A stretch of 64,000 nucleotides of DNA from Daphnia pulex (lineage: Eukaryota; Arthropoda; Branchiopoda; Diplostraca; Daphniidae). The translations under genes and the position numbers were made by a program. The notes beneath the pieces were generated by a model. The model saw only the letters and a program-made list of their open reading frames with translations. It made no database searches and was not told where the DNA came from. This document shows positions 9,998-64,000 of this stretch, one piece after another; the stretch's first letter is position 1; every line of letters starts with the position of its first letter. The stretch covers positions 13,507,001 to 13,571,000 of the forward strand of contig NC_060026.1 of the NCBI RefSeq assembly GCF_021134715.1, given 5' to 3'.

Positions 9998-10864
9998 TTA
10001 CATCTTTTTCCATACTTGAAGATTTTGAAGGAGTAGATACACTGAGTTGTGATAATCTTGAGATACTGTGCGGCTGAGTCCCCATTTAGGTCGGACGGAT
10101 GTCCATTCGCTGTGGAAAGTATCACCATGAAAGATTCCAGTCTGATTGGCTGCCGGAAACAGTTGATGGCCTAAAATATCTTTCAGAATGACGTTGATGA
10201 ATCCAGCCGCTTTCTTGTATTGAACTTGAACGAACGCTTGAATCCACGCTCCACGAACAGCTGAGAGGGGCAGCATTAAAATCTTGGTGGTATGCGGATT
10301 TTTGGCGTCTAAATCAAAACGAAGATTAAGTCCCAGCTTTTTACTGAGGGAAAACGAAGCCAGGGAGTGGTTGTGAGAATCTAGACTGCCAGTTTTCAAC
10401 GAAAAGATGGTGAAGGTTTGTTTTTCCACCGTTAAAGAAGGATCGACGTAAAACCACCAACTGTAAATTATTTCTTCGTCACGGTGTGCAACAAGGGACT
10501 TTGATTTACTGGCCGACTTCAATTCTAACCGTTGCATGTGTCCGTGCTTGGGAACATCGTCCATTTTAAACAGTGTCAAGTTGATGGCTTTGCCCATGAA
10601 CGGATCATCAACGCAGGTGACGTGCGAAAGATTTGCGATGTTGTGTGGTTGTTGAATCACGCCTTTATGTTTCATTCCTCCTAGTACACGGTTGATTTCT
10701 TGCTCTAGGTTGACGGCATCGCAGTCGGTGATAACAAGTTTAGCTTGATTAGTAAAACCACTGGAATTGAAATTAACATCCCAGGCGTTGGTCGCGCTAA
10801 CAGTATTCCAACTGAAAATTGTAAAGAAATTATAGAAAAACAGATAAATTACAACGGACTTCAT
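9998..10864 (-). CDS. Secreted polysaccharide-lyase-like protein (jelly-roll fold), intronless
   Basis: One uninterrupted exon of 288 codons from the ATG at 10864, chosen because the signal peptide MKSVVIYLFFYNFFTIFSW follows at once; an in-frame ATG ten codons upstream (10894) also exists. The mature protein has HMQRLELKS, IIYSWWFYVDPSL, FTIFSLK, a GAWIQAFVQVQY strand and a C-terminal RPKWGLSR...VYLLLQNLQVWKK block. This order resembles heparin-lyase/glucuronan-lyase-type concanavalin-like lyases as I remember them; the exact family is uncertain. The lack of introns among intron-rich neighbours suggests retrocopying or horizontal transfer. It lies tail-to-tail with the GH16 gene, and both products are secreted and probably act on polysaccharides. 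Confidence 0.7.
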   Translation of the reverse strand: MKSVVIYLFFYNFFTIFSWNTVSATNAWDVNFNSSGFTNQAKLVITDCDAVNLEQEINRVLGGMKHKGVIQQPHNIANLSHVTCVDDPFMGKAINLTLFKMDDVPKHGHMQRLELKSASKSKSLVAHRDEEIIYSWWFYVDPSLTVEKQTFTIFSLKTGSLDSHNHSLASFSLSKKLGLNLRFDLDAKNPHTTKILMLPLSAVRGAWIQAFVQVQYKKAAGFINVILKDILGHQLFPAANQTGIFHGDTFHSEWTSVRPKWGLSRTVSQDYHNSVYLLLQNLQVWKKM

Positions 10865-10933
10865 TTTGCAATGATTGAAACGACTAGCATGCAATTAGAA
10901 AACGAAATGAAATGATGTCAGCAACATTACAAC

Positions 10934-47185: not shown

Positions 47186-50100
47186 TTAAAGGGACGCCCC
47201 AATTTCCTCCTCCAACATGAATCCCGTGAAATGGGTGTTGTGCTCACCGTCGTCATGCAAATAAAAATTCGAGTATGAACCAGAATAAGAAATCGCCACC
47301 CAAACTCGATCGCCTTTTTTCATACTCAGCGTCGATTGGAGGGTCAACGGACTAAATTGATCCGTGGCGCTGTTGTACTCCTGAACAAAACTACTCGCAA
47401 TTAGATTGCCGTTCAAATAAAGACGAGAACTTAACCTAGAGTGAGATGAAGCTGAAAAAATTAACGAAGAACTTTTGAACTTCAGACGCGCCACTCCCGT
47501 GAAAGAGAAAAAATAAATTCCCGGTCGCGGTGCCGTGAATATTCCCGATGCCAAATTCATGGCATTTCCCTCGTTCACCCGCGCCAAATTGAACGTAATC
47601 GGAGTGTATTGGTTGTAACATTCAGAATTTCTCTGGACGTAGAAATGGACGGGCGCCGATTTGACGTCGGCGTATCCGATCCATTTCTGTGTGTCTGTAA
47701 ACAAAAGAATTAGACAAACAATAACCAGGAAACGTGAACAAGTCGTACCATTTTGATCAGCATTAAAGTTGCAGTAAATCATTTCCATCTTCTTTGATCC
47801 TTTGACAGAAAAGAATCCGCTCAGTTTATGCCCCATTCGCTGCAGATCTGCACACGAGTTCGGCATTTTACCAATGTCAACTTTTTCACTCGTTCGCTCT
47901 GTTAAAATAAAATTCAGATTCTTTTCATCGTGTCACATAAAACAATTCTTTCAGATTTTACCATTTAATTGGGTCGTCAAATCCGCAACGGCGGACTTGG
48001 TGCTGCTCAATTCCATTCTCGTTGAGGACAAATATGTTGTTGCAGTTTCCAATTGACTTAGAGTTGCTGAACCATTTCGTTCGATCATATTAAAGCAAGT
48101 TAATAAGTTTAAAGAAAAATGAATAATACCTTCAAGTTCTTTTCTCAGATTGTCTGCGGTGACTTTAAATTCGAACCCTAGCTGTTCCAATTTCGCTAAC
48201 AATAATAGAAAACAAAATGAATCTTATTTCTTTTGTTTTTCAATCGATAATTCAATGTTTTAGCATAACAGCTGTTAAATACCGTTTAGTATTGCTAATA
48301 AATCGTCGAAATTTTTCCTTAAATCAGTCCCCGTTTCCTTCAGTTCAGTTTTAGTATTCTCAAGCTCCTGCCTAGTCTCTAAATGGAATCGCATCATTAG
48401 TTTGTTCAATTTCCCACCGAGTTTTCATGTTCAATTCAAAAATAATTCTTAATATTCCTTCTAATTTTTTAGTCAAATCTGTCATATTAATTCTTATGTT
48501 TGCTAATACTAATAGTACTATAGTTTCCAAATCATTTGAGGTTGCTGAATTTTACCTTCCAGTTCCTTTTTCAGATTTTCTTCAGCAACCTTTAGTTCTT
48601 TTTCTTCTTGACCTATTCGTTGAAAATTCGCGTCACACTCTAAGAAAAAAAATTTATAGAATTTTTTTTAAACAAAAACATTTAATAAAAATTTTAATTT
48701 ACTTTTGAGTTCAGTTGACAAATTTGCGGTCGTGATTTTTATTTCCGCCAACTCTGTTTCAGTCGCTAAATTTATTGAAAAAAATTTTTGCATTTGAATT
48801 TCTTGCTAATCAGTATGTAACAATGAAATACCCTTTAATTTTGTAGTATAATTATTGACATTGGCCATGGTTTTGTCCAACTCGATTTTGCTTTTCTCCA
48901 ACTCCTGTTTAGTCACTTCAGTTCAATCACAACATCTTTTTAAAATGCTGTTTTTGTTTATTCTTAAATAATTAGAAATACCTGCTAATTTATTAGTCAA
49001 ATCACTCTTCACATTACCCAGTTCGGTGTTCGTATTTACCAAGTTCATCACAGTTGTCCTTAAGAGTTCTTTAGTATCTGAAATGAGATTGCAATTAATC
49101 AATTGTTAATTAAATGAAATGTTTCGTCAAAATGCCAACAAAAACCTTTGAGCTCGTCTTTCAGATTGTTCAATTCGTCGGTGATAGTCAATCTTGCACG
49201 TTCCATAACTTTAATCGGCGCCGACAGTTCGGCGGTCGTGTAACTGACACGAATGTTGTGATCCTGAAACGATTGAGAATCACGAAATGTGTCCAAATTG
49301 ATTCTGCTCAGTTGTATCGGTTTGGGCACGAATTTCTCTCCGTCCCATTGAACGTGGTTTCTGCTTTTTTGCAATATATTTTCCACTTCTGCTGTCAATA
49401 TTTCGGATGGGCGGGAAAAGGAATCGTTCCACATTTTTCCTGAAATTGTTGAACTGATTCTGTCCACGTCAGCCCAACTATTTGAGTCGTAATTGTGCTG
49501 GATTTTTTCTTTATTCTCCACATTTCTATTATGTTCATTCGAAATTTTCTTTGCGTTTTCACTCGTCTCGTTTTCTTGTTCGGTATTGTGAGTGTTGATA
49601 TTTTCTATTGCGACTTTAGTGTCATCATCAAAAACCAACACACCGGCAGTGACATTCGTGTCATCTCTGCTGGTTGTCGATTTGTCATCGCGAGTTTGAT
49701 TGCGGCTGGTTTGCTCTTGGTCTGTTGCTTCTGATCTTCTCATTTCATTTTCATTCGCATCGTTCGTTTGATTTGAGCGACCAGTTTCTCCATCCATTTT
49801 TACCTCCTCGTCTTGATTACTCGAATTTGATATTTGAATGACATCCGATTGTTTCTCCGCTTTTGGAAACATGTCCGCCAATTTCTTCTGAGTTTCCTTG
49901 TCCAGTTCGTTGATGATTTCATTCAAAGTTTTCGTCGTCCAATCCGGCCGGTGATTGTCCTCATGCCAGAAAACAGAGTCCCACATTTTGTCACTTTGTT
50001 CTCTTATGGTCGTCCTGGATGTGACCAGCAAATCTTTTAAAATGTTTAAAATTTGCGATTCCGTGTCCGGAGACACGACCTCGTAGTCGTCAAATGTGTC

Positions 50101-50871
50101 CATTCGGATGTTAGTGACCATTTCCGCCAACATTTTCTTCTCATCGCTGGCCGTCAAAAAAATTTCTTTTTTGTCTTTAAATTTCTGTAAAAGAGTAGAA
50201 ACCAATTGACCGGAAGTGACACTGTCGATGCTGATGGTCGTATGTTTAGTTTGCGACGTTTGCGATGACAAACTGTACAGCAGTTTTAAATGGTCAAATT
50301 GTTCGGGTTTAGATCGCATTTCGTTGGCCAGTTTATCGCAGATTTTCTGCTCATGACACGATAGAGAAAACCACAGGATTTTGCTCTCGTCATAATTGGT
50401 CCACTCTGGATACAGCCAATAATCCACTGTGGGTCTTTTGCTCGTGAGGATGACCTTCTCCAACGGAATAACTCTCACTTTATCGGATTGTATTTCTTGA
50501 CCGATAGATATTTTTAAATGTTTGACCACTTCCTTTTGGACTTTGTCGTTCCACATTTCCACACGAAATCTCATCTCTGGTTGATTCGTGACGTTGTTGT
50601 ATACACTAACGGCACTGTTTTGGTCCAATAGCGCAAGGGGAGAGTAGAAGTATTTTTTCTGGCTGGTACTCGTTGTTGCTTTGTGATTATTGGCGTGTTC
50701 GTAAATTTCAACGAGAAAGTCGCCGTACTCCATGAAAGTTAACGTGTCCGGTGAGATTTGCAGTTTTTCCCAAGAGGAAGAAACGCCGGGGTCGATTGAT
50801 TGGCAATTGCAGCAAAATAAGGCAAAAGCCAAAATGATGGCGAGGATGATTTGCATTGGAGTCATAGCCAT
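47186..50871 (-). CDS. Secreted coiled-coil C1q-domain protein with a large unrecognised N-terminal region
   Basis: Ten exons on the minus strand: 50871-49146, 49077-48982, 48915-48832, 48765-48703, 48639-48556, 48378-48283, 48195-48130, 48066-47962, 47898-47749, 47694-47186; all phases join to 992 residues. A signal peptide (MAMTPMQIILAIILAFALFC) starts a 575-residue single-exon region of unknown type: an ordered first half (LTFMEYGDFLVEIYEHA) and an Asn/Thr/Glu-rich, glycosylation-prone second half. Seven short exons of 63-105 bases, all phase 1-1, encode coiled coil (for example KQELEKSKIELDKT). The next exon has PNSCADLQRMGHKLSGFFSV and MIYCNF, like the start of fibrinogen-type heads. The last exon is a C1q/TNF-like head (GIFTAPRPGIYFFSF to HFTGFMLEEE). 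It is probably an extracellular oligomer, with either a lectin-like or a structural role. No function is assigned. Confidence 0.82.
48458..48502 (-). pseudogene. Degenerate coiled-coil cassette exon
   Basis: A 45-base stretch with a good acceptor (ATTAG|), the same phase 1-1 layout as its neighbours and a matching peptide (NMTDLTKKLE), but with GA where the donor GT should be. Skipping it leaves the gene in frame. Confidence 0.55.
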
Positions 50872-52769: not shown

Positions 52770-54731
52770 TCAGAGGGACGCCACAATTTCCTCCTCCAAC
52801 ATGAAACCCGTGAAATGGGTGGCGTGGCCAACGCTGTCATACAAATACGAGGATGAACCTTCGTACCAAGGATAATTAATCTCCACCCAAAGTTGATCGC
52901 CTTTTTTCAGGTTCAGCGTCGACTGGAGGGACAACGGGCTATATTGATCAGCGGGGCACTTACTCTCTATAACAGAACTCAATCCGATTCGATTTGATCG
53001 ACTGTTCATATAAAGAATAATATCTAAATAAGAAATATCAAAAGAAGATCTATAATCTTCAAGACGCGCCACTCCCGCGAAAGAGAAAAAATAAATTCCC
53101 GGTCGCGGTGCCGTGAATTTCCCCGATGTCAAATTCATGGCGTTTCCCTCGTTCACCACCGCCAACTCGAACGTAATCGGAGTTGAAGTTTTGTTAAAAT
53201 TAGAATATCTCTGGACGTAGAAATGGACGGGCGTCGATTTGACGTCGGTGTATCCAATCCATTTCTGGAAAACTTTTCATTCGATTATAAAATTAGATAA
53301 TTGCAACTGAATAATTCTTGAGAATCATCAGACATTTACCCGCATCGTCCGGTAGTTTAGTGAAATCGCAGTAAACTGATTCCATCATCGCCGATCCCAT
53401 GACGGAATAAAATCCGTTCAGGGTGTGGCCAATTAACCACAAGTCTTGGCACGACTTTGGTAGTCCAGTCAAAGTCACTAATCCGGTGCACACGAGTCGG
53501 CCCAGCGTGTGGACGCCGGATGAAGTTTCCAGTTGAGTTCGTCCGAAATTCAAACGAGTGACGGGCAGAACATTTTTGTCGGTAATGACACCTGCAATCG
53601 AAATTAATTTTATTCATCTTAATTCTGTACAAACGTGGGAACCGTTACACACCGTCGTCGACTAATTGAATTGGTGAAATCGTGTCGCAGTTGCATTTCA
53701 CTGCAGAATCGACACAGTTTCCATCAATTCCGCACTGGCAGGTGTGAACTCCGTCCGTGTTATTTCCGGCCCAAAAGTATTGCGCGTTTTCTTCTCTGTC
53801 GTTCCACCAACTGTAGGCGACGCCATTTAACTCGAACGGGACGTAGTAGCAGTCGTACTAATAATAAAATTCAAAATTCAAAAAAAAAAAAAGGAAAGAA
53901 AAATCAAACTACTGAAACTGACTTTAATCGACTGATGACATTCAGTGGACAATTCCATCAAAGCTTTTATTTGTCCCATTGACGAATTGTAGTTGATGGA
54001 GCGTGAATAGCACCCGGCATCGGCGCAGTGGCCCACATTTAAAGAAGATTCACTATCGTGTAGAATTGAGGTCGATCCTGTTTTCATGGAAAGATGATAA
54101 ATCAGATCTTTAATGAAAAATTTAGCTATTTTAAACTTTTTGACCTGATGTCATATCGCAGTAAACGTAAATTGGGTCATCGCCGACTCCTTGCCCGTCC
54201 GGATCGATCCAGTGCATTCCGGATGAAAGTGAAGGATCGATCGCTTGAAGTTGTCTGCATGTCCTTGGAATTCCGCTCTTTCCAGTTGATCGAATTGAAA
54301 TTTCTTTTTTAACTGGAAATAATTTTGAATCAGTGGAAACCGGAAGTTCAGTCGCTTCCAACAGGGAAGTTAATTTTCTTTCTTGGTCCTGAATTTTGAC
54401 TTCCAGTTGGACATTTTTGGCCTCTAATTGAATTACTTTCAATGCCAAATCTTGTCTTAGTTCATTCTGTCATAGAAAAGGCAAAAGTGTTTACCCACAG
54501 TGAAACTCTGAATTAAACTAACAACAGCAGACTTACATTTAGTTCAAGTTGCGCCTCTAGTTGCGTCACCTTTTCTTCAAGTTGAGCATTTTTAGCTTCA
54601 ATTTTGGCTTCTAGTCTCAATTCCAATTCTTGCAGTTTATCTTCTAAGGAAAATGTGGTAAGAGCAGAGGAACAAATTGCCCCGCAACTCAAAATCAACA
54701 TCAAACCAAAAAAACCCGTCAAACGAGCCAT
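52770..54731 (-). CDS. Secreted protein joining coiled coil, Caspr/neurexin-IV-like region and C1q head
   Basis: Six exons on the minus strand: 54731-54537, 54466-54145, 54077-53923, 53857-53653, 53591-53340, 53272-52770; 543 residues. A signal peptide (MARLTGFFGLMLILSCGA) is followed by a coiled coil (EAKIEAKNAQLEEKVTQLE). Exon 2 contains CRQLQAIDPSL, WIDPDGQG and YVYCDMTSG, as in fibrillar-collagen/fibrinogen-like heads. Exons 3-5 (ELSTECHQSI, YSWWNDREENAQYFWAG, CQCGIDGNCVD, CNCD, VDDG, VITDKNVLPV) follow the order seen in Caspr/neurexin-IV proteins. A second head start, SCQDLWLIGHTLNGFYSV, leads into the C1q domain. The last acceptor (AAAAG|TTTTCC) was chosen because the more obvious TTTTCCAG site breaks the frame; that choice is the weak point of the model. 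Confidence 0.78.
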
Positions 54732-55060
54732 TTTTACTCGATTTTCTTTGTAACAAAAGCGACACTTAACAATCGATAGAATAAAACTCTCCAGTCTAAA
54801 TACCTTTTGTGCTGTTTTATCAATCGCCTATCTTGCAAAGAGTCCAAAAAGATAACTACCGAGACTTTTGTTTCGAAATTTGGTTTTTACTGTTGTGCAA
54901 CATATTTTTTTAATGATGACTCAAATAGTTACGTCACTATTATAATCCAATCATCCGTTAATTTTAGTTGAATCTATAGGTTCAATAAGTTAATAGTAAT
55001 AGTTAATAATTAATGTTGTCATTCAAATCAGAAGAACCGCGATGCACATGATAAGTGACA
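54732..55060. other. Spacer upstream of the Caspr-like C1q gene
   Basis: AT-rich, with no exon. Presumably the promoter of the 52,770-54,731 gene. Confidence 0.4.
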
Positions 55061-55912
55061 TCATAAGTCAACCAGACTTGATCGCCTTTTTTCAAGTCCA
55101 GTGTCGACTGGAGGGTCATCACTATATTTAAAAGTGACGCTCGTGTCCTCTTGAATATAACTCGTCCCGATTAGATTCCCGTTAAAAAAAAAAAAATAAA
55201 CAGTAAAAAAGTAAGGCGATGGATCCGAAATACGGGGATGTCCCGTGAATGAGATAAAATAGATTCCCGGTCGCGGTGCCGTGAATTTCCCTGATGCCAA
55301 ATCCATGGCATTTCCCTCGTTCGCTCGCGCCAATTCGAACGGGACCGGAGTTGATTGTGTGTCATATGAAGAATTTCTCTGGACGTAGAAATAGACGGGC
55401 GCTGATTTGACATCGTCATATCCAATTGATTTCCGCAAATCTGCAAATAAAAGAAAATTAGACAAACAATTAATAAGTCAAATTAAAACATGTCGTACTA
55501 TTTTGATTGGCGTTAAAGTTGCAATAAATCATTTCCATCAATTGTTATAAATTTGAAGTTCCGTATCAGGAGATGCGACCTCGGAGTCGTCAAATGTGTC
55601 CATTCGAATGTTGGTGGCCGTTTCCACCAGCATTTTCTTCTCGTCGTTGGCCGTAAGAAAAATTTCTTTTTTGTCTTTAAATTTCTGTAAAAGAGTAGAA
55701 ACCAATTGACCGGAAGTGACACTGTCGATGCTGATGGTCGTATGTTGGGTTTGCGACGTCTTCAATGACAAACTGTAGAGCAGTTTAAAGTGGTCGAACT
55801 GTTCGGGTTTACCGGGGTTTACTTCACATTTCATTAGCCAATTTATCGCAGATTTTACACGACAGAGATAACCACAAAATTTTTCTCTTGTCATAATTTG
55901 TCCACTTTTTTT
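55061..55912 (-). pseudogene. Pseudogene of the large C1q gene, internally deleted
   Basis: 55,538-55,912 matches the part of exon 1 of the 50,871-47,186 gene that encodes KPEQFD through MDTFDD. It then jumps directly to the last ~40 bases of the fibrinogen-like exon (55,495-55,540), its intron, and a C1q exon (55,443-55,061). The middle of the gene, including all coiled-coil exons, is gone. The former donor GTACGA now reads AGTACGA, exon 1 runs into a stop at the join, and the C1q part is frameshifted near YSDDPPV and lacks the C-terminal HFTGF block. A 267-codon frame reaching up to 56,341 is open by chance. Confidence 0.85.
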
Positions 55913-57164: not shown

Positions 57165-60100
57165 ATGAAGAAAAGTGTCGAACTCTCGTCGGAGGTGTTT
57201 CTTACGTCACACCGTTTGGATAGTGAAAATGAAACAAATAATAATAACGGTGGGGTTGCTAATGGTGTCATCGTACGCAATGCGATTAAAAGTTACGGTG
57301 TCGGAAGTAATCGCTACGTTATACTAAACGGATTAAACATGACAGTGAAAAAAGGGACAATGTAAGTAAAATTGATTGATTGAACCAAGTGAATTATTTA
57401 GCCGTTAATCAACTGTAACAGAAATATAGCGAAATAAAATTATTTATTTCTATTACTTTGGCAAAGAGAAACTATAAAACATTCACGCTACTTTCGTTAG
57501 GGAAAAGTGTCAGGTGCGAATGGGAAAATTGAATGGCGTATCACGAAACCGCCGAAAGCCATTACTTTCTCCTGACTGTTTTTATAACTATATTTAAAGG
57601 ATTTAGTAGCAATTTGAATAAACTATAAACGCCCATACTCCCACCATAAATAATGCATCTCAAACAAATCTTGATGTTATGTCTAAACATTTTATTTTTT
57701 AAACTTGACAATTATTTCTTACTGTTTTGGGGTTTTGTCTGTTTTACAGTTACGGATTGCTGGGGGCCAGCGGCTGCGGTAAGACAACACTGTTAAGTTG
57801 TCTCGTCGGACGACGAACCTTAAATAACGGAGAGGTACTCGTCCTGGGACATGAGCCGGGCTCTCCTAACAGCGGAATTCCCGGACCGCAGGTCGGCTAC
57901 ATGCCACAGGAATTGGCACTGTACGACTATTTTACCATCAAGGAAACCCTGGAATATTTCGGGCGCATTTACAAATTGAAAAGTGCTTTTGTGAAATCGC
58001 AATTGAAGTTTCTGTCCAATTTATTGGATCTACCCTCGTGTGATCGTTACGTCAAGACGCTGAGTGGCGGACAGCAACGGCGCGTCTCGTTCGCCGTCGC
58101 TTTGTTTCACGATCCTGATTTGCTCATCTTGGACGAACCGACAGTCGGCGTTGATCCTTTATTGAGTAACAGGTAAAATATTTTCATTTCCGCCATTTTT
58201 GTTTTGACTTTTCTTTCAGTTTATGTTACCTACCCTTTTTGAAAACGATTTTGAGAAAGGATAGGTGAGCTTGGTATTTTGCTAACCCATCCTTATGTAA
58301 GGGTAGTTGAAAGCTATTCCATGTAGGAGAGGGGGTAGGCAAAGTTTTGCTTCAACTCTTAGTTCGAGTACAATTTTTCAGTGCGCAAAAATGGTTCCGT
58401 TGAAGCAGTTCTCATTTCTGTGTCGTCAATTATTTAACAAAAAGGGATAATTGTCCAGTGATTTAGTGATTTTTAATTTACATGATAATGTTTAAATTGT
58501 TCATTTTTAATTTACAGCATTTGGAATCATCTTGTGCGTCTAAGTGTCGACCATGGAAAAACGGTGATCGTCACGACTCACTACATCGAAGAAGCAAAAC
58601 AATCGCACACGGTAGGAACTTCTATTAACTCATTTTCTAATTTTTGCTTTGGTAAAATTCGCATTCATTTTTTTTAATGTCTAAAAGTTTATCTTATTAT
58701 CTGTTAAAAATAAGAGGGGAAACGTATACTGTTGCGTGACTTTTGAACTAACCGAGTGCGTAATTGAAATCCTGGTTTTTCCAAGCTGGTTTTTTCCACT
58801 GGATTTTACATGACCCCAATAATAGCAGATGTTTGAGCTTTTAATAAGATAAGTCGTTTATTTTGTCTAGAAATAGTTATATTTAAAATGACCTTGATAG
58901 AAATGGTTGAAAACGAATTTTAGATTGGAATGATGCGATCCGGCCGTTTGCTGGTCGAAGAGTTGCCGGCAAATTTGTTGAGAGATTACGGACTTTCTTC
59001 ATTAGAAGATGTTTTCCTGAAGCTTTGCCTGAAAGACGATGGCAATGTTCCAGCCGGCCAATCGACTGAATTGCCCAATATTGTAGCTTTAAAAGACACT
59101 GACCAAATCAGTGCCCAACAGCCACCAAATGGGCATGTAAACATGTCCGTCCAACAAGGTACGGTACATCTCTATTAGACCAAAACCCAAAAAGGTGTTA
59201 AACCCGATAGCGATGTAACAGTTGTCATTTAAATATTCTTTTGTTTTTAGTAAGAATTCCGTCTTCCAGCAAACGACAATCTTTTAAAATGGCACTGCCG
59301 TCTCCTCATCGGGTCGGCGCACTCATCCGGAAAAATTATTTGCTGTCGTTTCGAAATATCGGGTGGGACAATTGCTATTATTTTTAATTGTTTATTAATC
59401 GCTAAATCTTTGCGATTTTTATCCGCAGGATATTTTTATTCACGTACTTGTTGCCGGCCTTGCAAGCAGCCCTATTCAATGTGACCCTTGGGCACGAGCC
59501 AATGGGCCTGAAAATGGCCGTCGTCAATGAAGAAATCGATCCGAGTCTGGGCCGCGTTTGCAACTACACGACAGATTGCGCTTATTCGATGCTCAGCTGT
59601 CGCTACCTTCGCTACATCAATAACAACATCATTCAGGTTGAATAATTGATTTTTAAAAAATTATATGAGCTACTACAAAGGATTTAATTTACGCAGGTTC
59701 CATATGAGAATGTATCCGCCGCTATAGAAGCGGGAAGACATGGGAAAGTCTGGGGTGTCATCCACTTCGGGAAGAATTTCACTCAAGAATTTGAGATGCG
59801 ACAGTCGAACGGCGATTCGGCGGAATTGGACAATATCATCCGCAGTCGAATCAGCATCAACATGGATTCTTCCAGTGAGTTGCTGGTTAAATCTTAAAAA
59901 ATTAACCGGATTTAAAATGTAAATTTCAATTACAGATCAGCAGATTGACGTGTTTATTGAAAAATGGCTAGTGGAAGCATTTGAAAATTTTATTCAAGAT
60001 TTCTTGAAGGTCTGCGGAAACGTACCAGAAGCTGGTTACTTGCCTATCGTGGTAACAAAAATCTGTTTTTAAATTTGTTTAAATTTAAGTATATTATTAT

Positions 60101-62272: not shown

Positions 62273-64000
62273 ATGACGGAAAATGTCATTGAAGAATCGG
62301 CGGATGTGCTCTCCCCTCCTCACCGGATTGCTAACGAAAACAACAACCCCAGTGATTCTTGTGTTTACGGTGTTCTCGTCCGCAACGCGACCAAGACATT
62401 CGGATCTGGAAGTAAAAAATGTGCAGTTCTGCAAGGACTGAACTTGTCTGTTAAAAGGGGATCGATGTAAGAAACGCTATTCCGTCCCAATTTTATTTAT
62501 AATTCTGGGAAATTGCAATGAAAAGATTCCGTACGGTAGGATAAACTAATAACTAAAACTATGTCAACATTTTTTAAAAATAGATACGGATTGCTAGGAC
62601 CCAGCGGCTGTGGAAAGACGACACTGCTAAGTTGCCTCGTCACTTTACGCTCCTTAAACAGTGGGACGATTCAGGTGTTGGGACACGAACCAGGCTCTCC
62701 CAAAAGCGGAGTTCCCGGACCGCAGGTTGGCTACATGCCACAAGAATTGGCCCTGTACGGCGACTTCACCATCAAGGAGACACTTACATACTTTGGTCGC
62801 CTTTACAAATTGAAAGCGACTTTTATGAAATCGCAATTGAAATTTCTGACCAGTTTACTGGATCTGCCAACGAGTAATCGTTACGTCAAGACGCTGAGTG
62901 GCGGACAGCAACGGCGCGTCTCGTTTGCCGTCGCTTTGTTTCACGATCCTGATTTGCTCATCTTGGACGAACCGACAGTTGGCGTTGATCCTTTGCTTAG
63001 GCACAGGTAATTTTGTTCAATTTGCCATTGTTATTCTAAATCATTAAAATTTTCTTATTTGACAATGCGCAGCATTTGGAACCACCTTGTCCGCCAAAGT
63101 GTCGACCATGGCAAAACGGTGATCGTCACGACTCACTACATCGAAGAAGCAAGACAAGCCAACACGGTATGAAAAATTACATTTAAATCTTACCATTACA
63201 CGTAATATAAATGCTGTTGGATTTTTAGATTGGATTGATGCGTTGCGGTCGTTTATTAGTCGAAGATTCGCCCGAAAATCTGTTAAGGAATTATGGACTC
63301 TCAACATTGGAGGATGTTTTCCTTCAACTCAGCAGAAAGGAAAATTCTAAAAATCCAGAAGTCGAATCTGCAGAGATTGAAGCAAATATGGCCAGCATGA
63401 TTCCGGGTTCCAGTGAGTCAGACCCCAACACCGGCGTAGCGCAAACTCTGCCATTTCATGAAATCGCCAGAGTTTCCGTAACCAATTTGGACCGTCAGTG
63501 TGACATAAATGGAATTGCATTCCCATCGACTGGTTGCTCTTCTCCTACAGTAGGAAATCATTCATGATCTTTAATGCACTTAATTTTTAATTTATTTTGT
63601 GACCCCAGAACAGGCAAACAAGCCCTTGTGCACCCATACTACATACTACATCCGGAAGTGCATTATTGGAAGAAAAATGGGAAATATTCAAAAAGGTCCT
63701 GCCATCCCCCTATCGTGTTGGGGTCCTTGTTCGGAAGAATTACTTGGTATCCATTCGTTTTACATTGTGAGTTTCTTTTTTTAGTATTTAAACAGCGAAC
63801 TGTTGATTTAATTAACAATTTAAATATTTGTGATGTTGAAGATTATTTCTTGCGACTTTCTTCGTGCCCGCCATTCAAACGTATATCTTTAACATATGCA
63901 TCGGACAAGACATGACTGCCCTCAAAATGGCCATTGTTAATGAGGAAATCGATGTGAACCAGGGTCATCTATGCAACAATGCGACTGATTGCTCGTATTT
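62273..64000 (+). CDS. ABC half-transporter, subfamily H (ABCH), tandem paralog, 5' part
   Basis: Six exons visible: 62273-62466, 62584-63006, 63073-63166, 63229-63549, 63609-63766, 63842 to the edge. The gene continues past the window. It starts MTENVIEESADVL, and its NBD has Walker A GPSGCGKTT, LSGGQQRR and LLILDEPT, all intact. Exons 2 and 3 have the same lengths as in the upstream copy (423 and 94 bases) and introns keep position and phase. The linker after the NBD is longer than in the first copy. Exon 4 is taken to end at ACA|GTAGGA, giving a 59-bp intron; a GT at 63479 is an alternative. The first membrane segment (LFLATFFVPAIQTYIF) and MAIVNEEID match the paralog. Confidence 0.85.

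Follow-up and report, generated by a model that had tools for sequence, protein, structure and literature searches.

The ten-exon gene on the minus strand of the analyzed stretch of DNA (the window, 64,000 nucleotides, C10:13507001-13571000, in a Daphnia pulex genome of 133.19 Mb in 13 contigs) encodes, with a probability that we put at roughly 60%, a lectin-like recognition protein that is secreted and oligomeric, belongs to a large Daphnia family, and for which we infer an immune function. The computational basis of this reading consists of a signal-peptide-like start, a conserved N-terminal module, a coiled-coil stalk, a C1q-type head, the diversification of this head and one apparent exchange of the head type. 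The faster evolution of the head, the discordant histories of the head and the N-terminal part, and the apparent replacement of C1q with a ricin-type lectin in one relative point to a modular recognition family.

The predicted spliced frame consists of 992 codons, from the ATG at 50871 to the stop codon in the C1q exon, with 5' GT and 3' AG in all modeled introns and every junction in phase 1 (Table 1). The analysis confirms the gene at the position given in the earlier note; its reality beyond chance follows from the purifying selection that affects the paralogous exons (see below). The sole hydrophobic segment of the protein is located at its start (19-residue hydropathy above 1.6 in windows starting at residues 1-10) and the highest later window of this profile scores 0.82, so that no membrane anchor is seen.

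Table 1. Features of the window gene and its neighbors (window positions)
Feature	Position	Strand	Basis
Ten-exon C1q gene	50871-47186	-	splice model from reading frames
Exon 1: signal-peptide-like start (~residues 1-24) and N-terminal region	49146..50871	-	ORF, splice model; 575 codons plus one base
Coil exon 1 (32 codons)	48982..49077	-	splice sites, phase; recovered by automatic coil-exon search
Coil exon 2 (28 codons)	48832..48915	-	splice sites, phase; acceptor weak; missed by automatic search at threshold used
Coil exon 3 (21 codons)	48703..48765	-	splice sites, phase; recovered by automatic search
Coil exon 4 (28 codons)	48556..48639	-	splice sites, phase; shortened version from automatic search
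Coil exon 5 (32 codons)	48283..48378	-	splice sites, phase; recovered by automatic search
Coil exon 6 (22 codons)	48130..48195	-	splice sites, phase; recovered by automatic search
Coil exon 7 (35 codons)	47962..48066	-	splice sites, phase; recovered by automatic search
Fibrinogen-like hairpin exon (50 codons), invariant Cys pair	47749..47898	-	found in relatives; weak resemblance to fibrinogen gamma profile
C1q head exon, including stop codon	47186..47694	-	PF00386, E 5.3e-15
C1q gene of another build, apparently intact: signal-peptide-like start, coil, partial COLFI, hairpin, C1q	52770..54827	-	reading frames
Signal-peptide-like start and coil of this neighbor	54516-54827	-	by eye
COLFI match of this neighbor	54134-54469	-	E 8.3e-10, over cut-off; positions 28-71 of 233
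C1q exon of this neighbor	52773-53276	-	over Pfam cut-off
Pseudogene: N-region piece (residues 186-286), broken C1q piece ~40 bases away	55064..55813	-	genome matches, frames

The N-terminal exon has no credible match to a known domain in the libraries searched, in line with the earlier note. The 575-codon exon yields zero Pfam matches at E-values up to 1, and no credible solved structure was found in the PDB with either the single sequence or a 24-member profile; the match of the N-terminal sequence to a spore coat protein (PDB, E 0.087) was taken as chance. The Pfam matches of 24 selected relatives (E up to 0.5) are scattered over 23 families, each found in at most 4 of the 24 members, with the best E-value of 6e-4, and were also attributed to chance; no Ig family is detected at E up to 0.5 among the 24 members. 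In the N-region alignment of 24 rows, which we chose from the fetched relatives, eight positions are invariant, two of these being cysteines (C172 and C178). By conservation, the region can be split into N1 (44-212), N2 (213-340), a linker (341-457) and N3 (458-575), the borders being our own; the linker is polar and varies in length among the members. N1 (approximately 44-205) is present also in shorter genes, and the two of these that were inspected have coil-like frames (by eye), a hairpin exon and C1q. The AF2 model of the N-terminal region, made without an alignment, has a pLDDT of 35.6, too low for use. The idea of internal repeats, conceived by eye, was abandoned as the hhalign probabilities are below 2%, save for one comparison of two overlapping slices.

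A search for relatives of the N-terminal region in collections of viral, bacterial and archaeal contigs gave no confirmed match; this result has no bearing on other crustaceans because the collections comprise viruses, bacteria and archaea, and records near the Daphnia genome may be absent from them. In the literature searched, no paper naming this domain was found among the portions of text available. A paper of 2026 refers, in the part available and with no data given, to a conserved domain that is frequent beside C1q in Daphnia (PMC13322756), possibly the N-terminal module of the window gene. Within the libraries and papers searched, the N-terminal domain appears to be undescribed.

The seven short coiled-coil exons read from the sequence in the earlier note withstand analysis: in addition to the intron borders and phase, their heptad periodicity reaches z = 6.0 over 209 residues compared with 300 shuffles. 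The stalk is a coiled coil and not a collagen tail, with 4 glycines in the 209 residues. The lengths of six of the seven exons are 7n or 7n+4 codons. When the seven exons of the window gene were used to train a search for phase-1 exons with a coil-like composition, with no rule on sevens, 65 exons were detected. They come from 17 of the 18 loci, L024 having none, and the reversed sequences gave none; in the window gene itself, the search recovered six of the seven at the threshold used, one of these shortened. Among the 65 exons, 55 have lengths of 7n or 7n+4 codons (binomial 8e-21, a value that overstates the case because same-place exons of related genes are not independent). These lengths suggest that the coil exons may be cassettes, the gain or loss of which would keep the reading frame and, mostly, also the coil register.

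The fibrinogen-like start that had been proposed to precede the head stands as an exon that exists and recurs in relatives, but its resemblance to fibrinogen is weak. When the family profile of this exon is compared with the PDB at E up to 1, fibrinogen accounts for 15 of the 16 sequences (14 named as gamma chain), with the best E-value of 0.25; the Pfam models of fibrinogen and COLFI match none of the 24 members at E up to 0.5. A longer frame in L052 matches Fibrinogen_C at E 0.026, short of the cut-off. The exon was found at E < 1e-6 in 23 of the 24 relatives searched, L028 being the exception, and both cysteines of its pair are invariant across the 24 rows of the alignment of this exon. At 50 codons, it is hairpin-sized only and does not amount to a full FBG (fibrinogen C-terminal) domain.

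The C1q head was correctly identified in the earlier note, the PF00386 match being over the cut-off. By sequence, the closest solved heads are those of adiponectin and cerebellin, with collagen X also among the matches. The AF2 model of the head is weak (pLDDT 53.5, built from three window sequences); Foldseek with this model retrieves C1q/TNF structures, the best being C1QTNF5 (E 5.1e-5, TM-score 0.39 by query length). In solved structures, C1q heads are trimers, and glycans are often bound by C1q heads.

The survey of paralogs that had been suggested reveals a large family in the D. pulex genome. The search with the 575-codon exon gives at least 100 matches that fall into at least 65 loci, some of them broken, with at least 41 loci on C10, the contig of the window (76 of the 117 candidates were scored, so that all family counts are lower bounds). 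Further pieces were found with two divergent queries. A C1q match is located downstream, on the same strand and within 8 kb, in 44 of the 65 N-region loci (30 of the 49 long and 14 of the 16 short ones), the window pseudogene being counted among these. C1q matches number at least 150 genome-wide (150 of the 276 candidates scored), at least 96 of them on C10 beyond 10 Mb, a portion that makes up about 5% of the genome. The architecture described as new appears so in its N-terminal region, which has no credible known domain in the libraries searched, but the build recurs across the genome and the combination of a coil with a C1q head is known in bivalves.

The downstream DNA was inspected for seven of the 21 N-region loci without a listed C1q match. 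L050 and L052 have divergent C1q sequences downstream, both over the Pfam cut-off, whereas no head is recognizable by eye within ~3 kb downstream of three loci. In L055, on C8, helical-looking frames are followed by Ricin_B_lectin (PF00652, E 4.1e-12, over the cut-off), tied to the N-region gene by order, strand and distance (~1 kb) only; judged from this arrangement, a ricin-type lectin appears to take the place of C1q in one relative. The surrounding region, C8:13009500-13019700 (L055, L040, L041, L052), contains head-to-head N-region genes, with the ricin-type lectin after one and coil, hairpin and C1q after the other. At C5:118300-122500 (L042, L053), an N-region gene precedes a frame of 208 residues that contains three repeats (EYLYP...RRxVFTWR, by eye), has no Pfam match and has a best PDB E-value of 0.33; this frame may represent a separate trefoil of lectin-like type. 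Elsewhere on C5, broken relatives are present.

The 18 aligned paralogs are 66-78% identical to the window gene in the N exon, and the duplication adjoining the window gene accordingly looks old. An N-region array is located at C7:2412271-2437607, with the last four members ~6.09 kb apart, of equal match scores and with internal stops, which looks like a recent tandem duplication of a broken copy. Near-identical N-region copies in opposite orientation lie ~0.47 Mb apart at C2:10772824 and C2:11244245. The earlier claim that the family is still duplicating is not supported by the surroundings of the window gene, the recent-looking copies being located elsewhere, on C7 and C2.

What had been taken for a truncated copy near the window gene looks like a different C1q gene with its own start, coil, COLFI match and hairpin exon, the latter 45% identical to that of the window gene; BLAST produced no alignment between the fibrinogen hairpin and the COLFI start of this neighbor. 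The nearby pseudogene is real, with an N-region fragment beside a broken C1q fragment. Elsewhere in the window, similar ABC transporter exons are found in tandem on the plus strand at 57709-58176 (PF00005, E 2e-25) and 62540-63010 (known from its frame alone), and a polysaccharide lyase match (PF14099, E 1.6e-5, sub-threshold), with a start that by eye looks like a signal peptide, on the minus strand at 10001-10894. Fucosyltransferase (PF00852) gives 135 matches (exon pieces) genome-wide, 36 of them counted on C10 beyond 10 Mb; in the available text of PMC9894429, this kind of gene is linked to Pasteuria resistance in D. magna. Numerous fucosyltransferase matches do not in themselves test synteny with the D. 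magna F locus; the idea of such synteny was dropped, the WSC genes listed there giving one match here, on C2.

The two ends of the protein evolve differently. Among 21 loci (the window gene and L009-L028), L013, L020 and L028 were excluded from the N-exon dN/dS, the tree and the coil counts because of stops in the N exon or the lack of a C1q match, with L013 retained among the 19 C1q heads. For all 153 pairs of the 18 genes, in which both ends are open, the C1q exon exceeds the N exon in dN/dS (medians 0.64 vs 0.29), which represents consistency rather than 153 tests because the pairs share ancestry. Over ungapped columns, the dN/dS is 0.26 (0.22-0.30) for the N exon of 18 genes and 0.63 (0.49-0.79) for C1q of 19 genes, and by part, it is 0.19-0.29 for N1, 0.26 for N2, 0.23 for N3, 0.53 for the linker and 0.66 for C1q (19 genes), all by pairwise counting that is rough for paralogs with gene conversion. 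The paralogous exons are under purifying selection, and the N-terminal region is conserved in the paralogs, with N1, N2 and N3 all below 0.3.

When the most variable quarter of the sites was picked in half of the genes and measured in the other half, the held-out C1q sites have a dN/dS of 1.79 (5-95% range, 1.51-2.19), above 1 in 200 of 200 splits, compared with 0.63 for the held-out N-exon sites (above 1 in 0 of 200) and 0.62 for random C1q columns. Because loose constraint predicts a dN/dS of up to 1, the value of 1.79 argues for diversifying selection on the head over loose constraint alone, as measured by counting methods that conversion between copies can bias. The same value bears on the possibility that the protein belongs to an extracellular matrix (egg coat, cuticle, or peritrophic or mucus layer), in which the N-terminal module would build and a loosely constrained C1q head would cross-link. 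C1q heads are also matrix parts, as with collagen X among the matches, the N-terminal module is conserved, and the kairomone study, in the text available, reports C1q genes as enriched among the repressed genes and cuticle genes among the induced ones (PMC4514973). However, loose constraint falls short of the dN/dS at the held-out sites, and the apparent replacement of C1q with a ricin-type lectin is easier to reconcile with ligand binding than with cross-linking; a matrix role is, in our estimate, unlikely.

The histories of the two parts also disagree. The N and C1q trees have 1 of 15 splits in common, the C1q tree being well supported at 1 of its 15 inner branches only. In AU tests of groups picked after the trees were seen, a common history of N and C1q is rejected in three of six cases (L009+L010, p 0.003; L015+L017, p 0.022; L010+L016, p 0.001), with two rejections surviving the correction for six tests, and is not rejected in the other three. 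These three of six tests suggest that the disagreement between head and N-terminal part might result from swapping of heads between copies. The expected concentration of variability in the C1q loops was not observed: on the weak AF2 model, mean pN is 0.228 for loops and 0.246 for strands, an equally good result came from 82 of 134 circular shifts, and predicted strands contain 15 of the 32 most variable sites.

Diversifying selection and head swapping, both suggested for the window family, are known in gamete and allorecognition proteins, and diversification of the head would be expected also of a protein that serves reproduction or the recognition of self, gametes, mates or kin. Tens of copies, one apparently with another head type, nevertheless fit a multitude of external ligands better than a single partner, and nothing in the analysis indicates reproductive tissue, so that we give such a role little credence. 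Least credible is a C1q/TNF-like signaling ligand of the adiponectin/cerebellin type with an unusual propeptide-like N-terminal region, which the closest solved heads by sequence (adiponectin and cerebellin) and fold (C1QTNF5) would favor, because signaling ligands are usually few, with a conserved head, whereas here the head has the highest dN/dS among the parts measured and C1q is apparently replaced by a ricin-type lectin in one relative.

Pathogen recognition, listed in the earlier note as a candidate role, fits the evolution of the head. In such a recognition protein, three chains would be wound together by the stalk coil and the C1q head, the head's variable part would bind glycans or other molecules on microbial or parasite surfaces, and the N-terminal module would gather the resulting trimers or hand the bound target on to a downstream partner that the copies share; a shared assembly role or a shared partner would explain why this module is constant among the copies. 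Duplication, head swaps between copies and selection on the heads could then produce a germline repertoire of binding specificities. More tentatively, and at clearly less than even odds, the family might constitute a germline-diversified recognition system of Daphnia's own. Its N-terminal effector module would be constant and of a new fold, its stalk would consist of heptad-sized phase-1 cassettes whose gain or loss leaves the frame, and mostly the register, intact, and its heads would be interchangeable and under positive selection, with C1q, ricin-type and, perhaps, three-repeat lectin kinds; the system would be concentrated in the final 6 Mb of a single chromosome.

For the study of coevolution, Daphnia and its parasites serve as a standard model, and a large family with a constant front and a diversifying head would supply this field with new candidate recognition genes. 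The window family would be an arthropod counterpart of the lectin repertoires of snails and bivalves, and the N-terminal module would be a new domain that deserves a family entry and a structure.

In Daphnia, C1q genes have been noted before. The D. magna gene 11F-21.35, which combines COLFI and C1q and lies near the ABC/F Pasteuria resistance loci, displays trans-species polymorphism and is upregulated after exposure (PMC11193740); like the window gene, it is a Daphnia C1q gene that is a candidate for parasite recognition, but its build, for which the available text mentions no N-terminal module, is closer to that of the neighbor at 52770-54827. In D. pulex, 172 genes with a C1q signature are reported, and Omcl23 ('Neurexin/Complement C1q', 82 genes) is over-represented among the kairomone-repressed genes (PMC4514973). 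Omcl23 is a large D. pulex C1q family, like that of the window gene, and may include the window gene or its neighbor, but no N-terminal domain is described for it in the available text. A 2009 survey of immunity in D. pulex has no occurrence of C1q in its main text, as available (PMC2685406). The cladoceran-specific CS1 and CS2 of D. magna are described as having 239-365 residues, with a transmembrane segment close to the C-terminus in CS1 (PMC9894429), and differ from the window protein, which has 992 residues and no later hydrophobic segment.

Complement C1q proper (type I) has a collagen tail that the window gene lacks. The closer parallel is with the bivalve sC1q-like type II proteins, in which a coiled coil precedes the C1q head (PMC6835236): the window gene has a C1q domain, a signal peptide (by hydropathy) without an anchor, and a coil before the head. 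As far as the available text of that study extends, secretion, the coil-then-C1q order, massive expansion spread unevenly over the chromosomes, and positive selection that acts on a limited set of sites in the head are common to both. Unlike the window gene, the bivalve type II proteins have no large conserved N-terminal module named there, and the window gene differs further by the fibrinogen-like hairpin exon and by a coil assembled from many phase-1 exons, mostly of whole heptads or of heptads plus four residues. Snail FREPs combine fibrinogen with Ig domains (PMC7588048) and QREPs combine Ig-like domains with C1q (PMC8878817). A likeness to these may lie in the pairing of an N-terminal module of a secreted protein with different lectin-like heads, which in Daphnia would be C1q, matched after 44 of the 65 N-region loci, and Ricin_B_lectin, tied by order, strand and distance to the one relative on C8; the difference is that the snail module, as described, is Ig-like, whereas none of the 24 Daphnia members has an Ig match at E up to 0.5. 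So far as the available texts of these studies go, the coil-C1q build, together with expansion and selection on the head, is already known from bivalves, and the N-terminal module matches neither the bivalve nor the snail kind.
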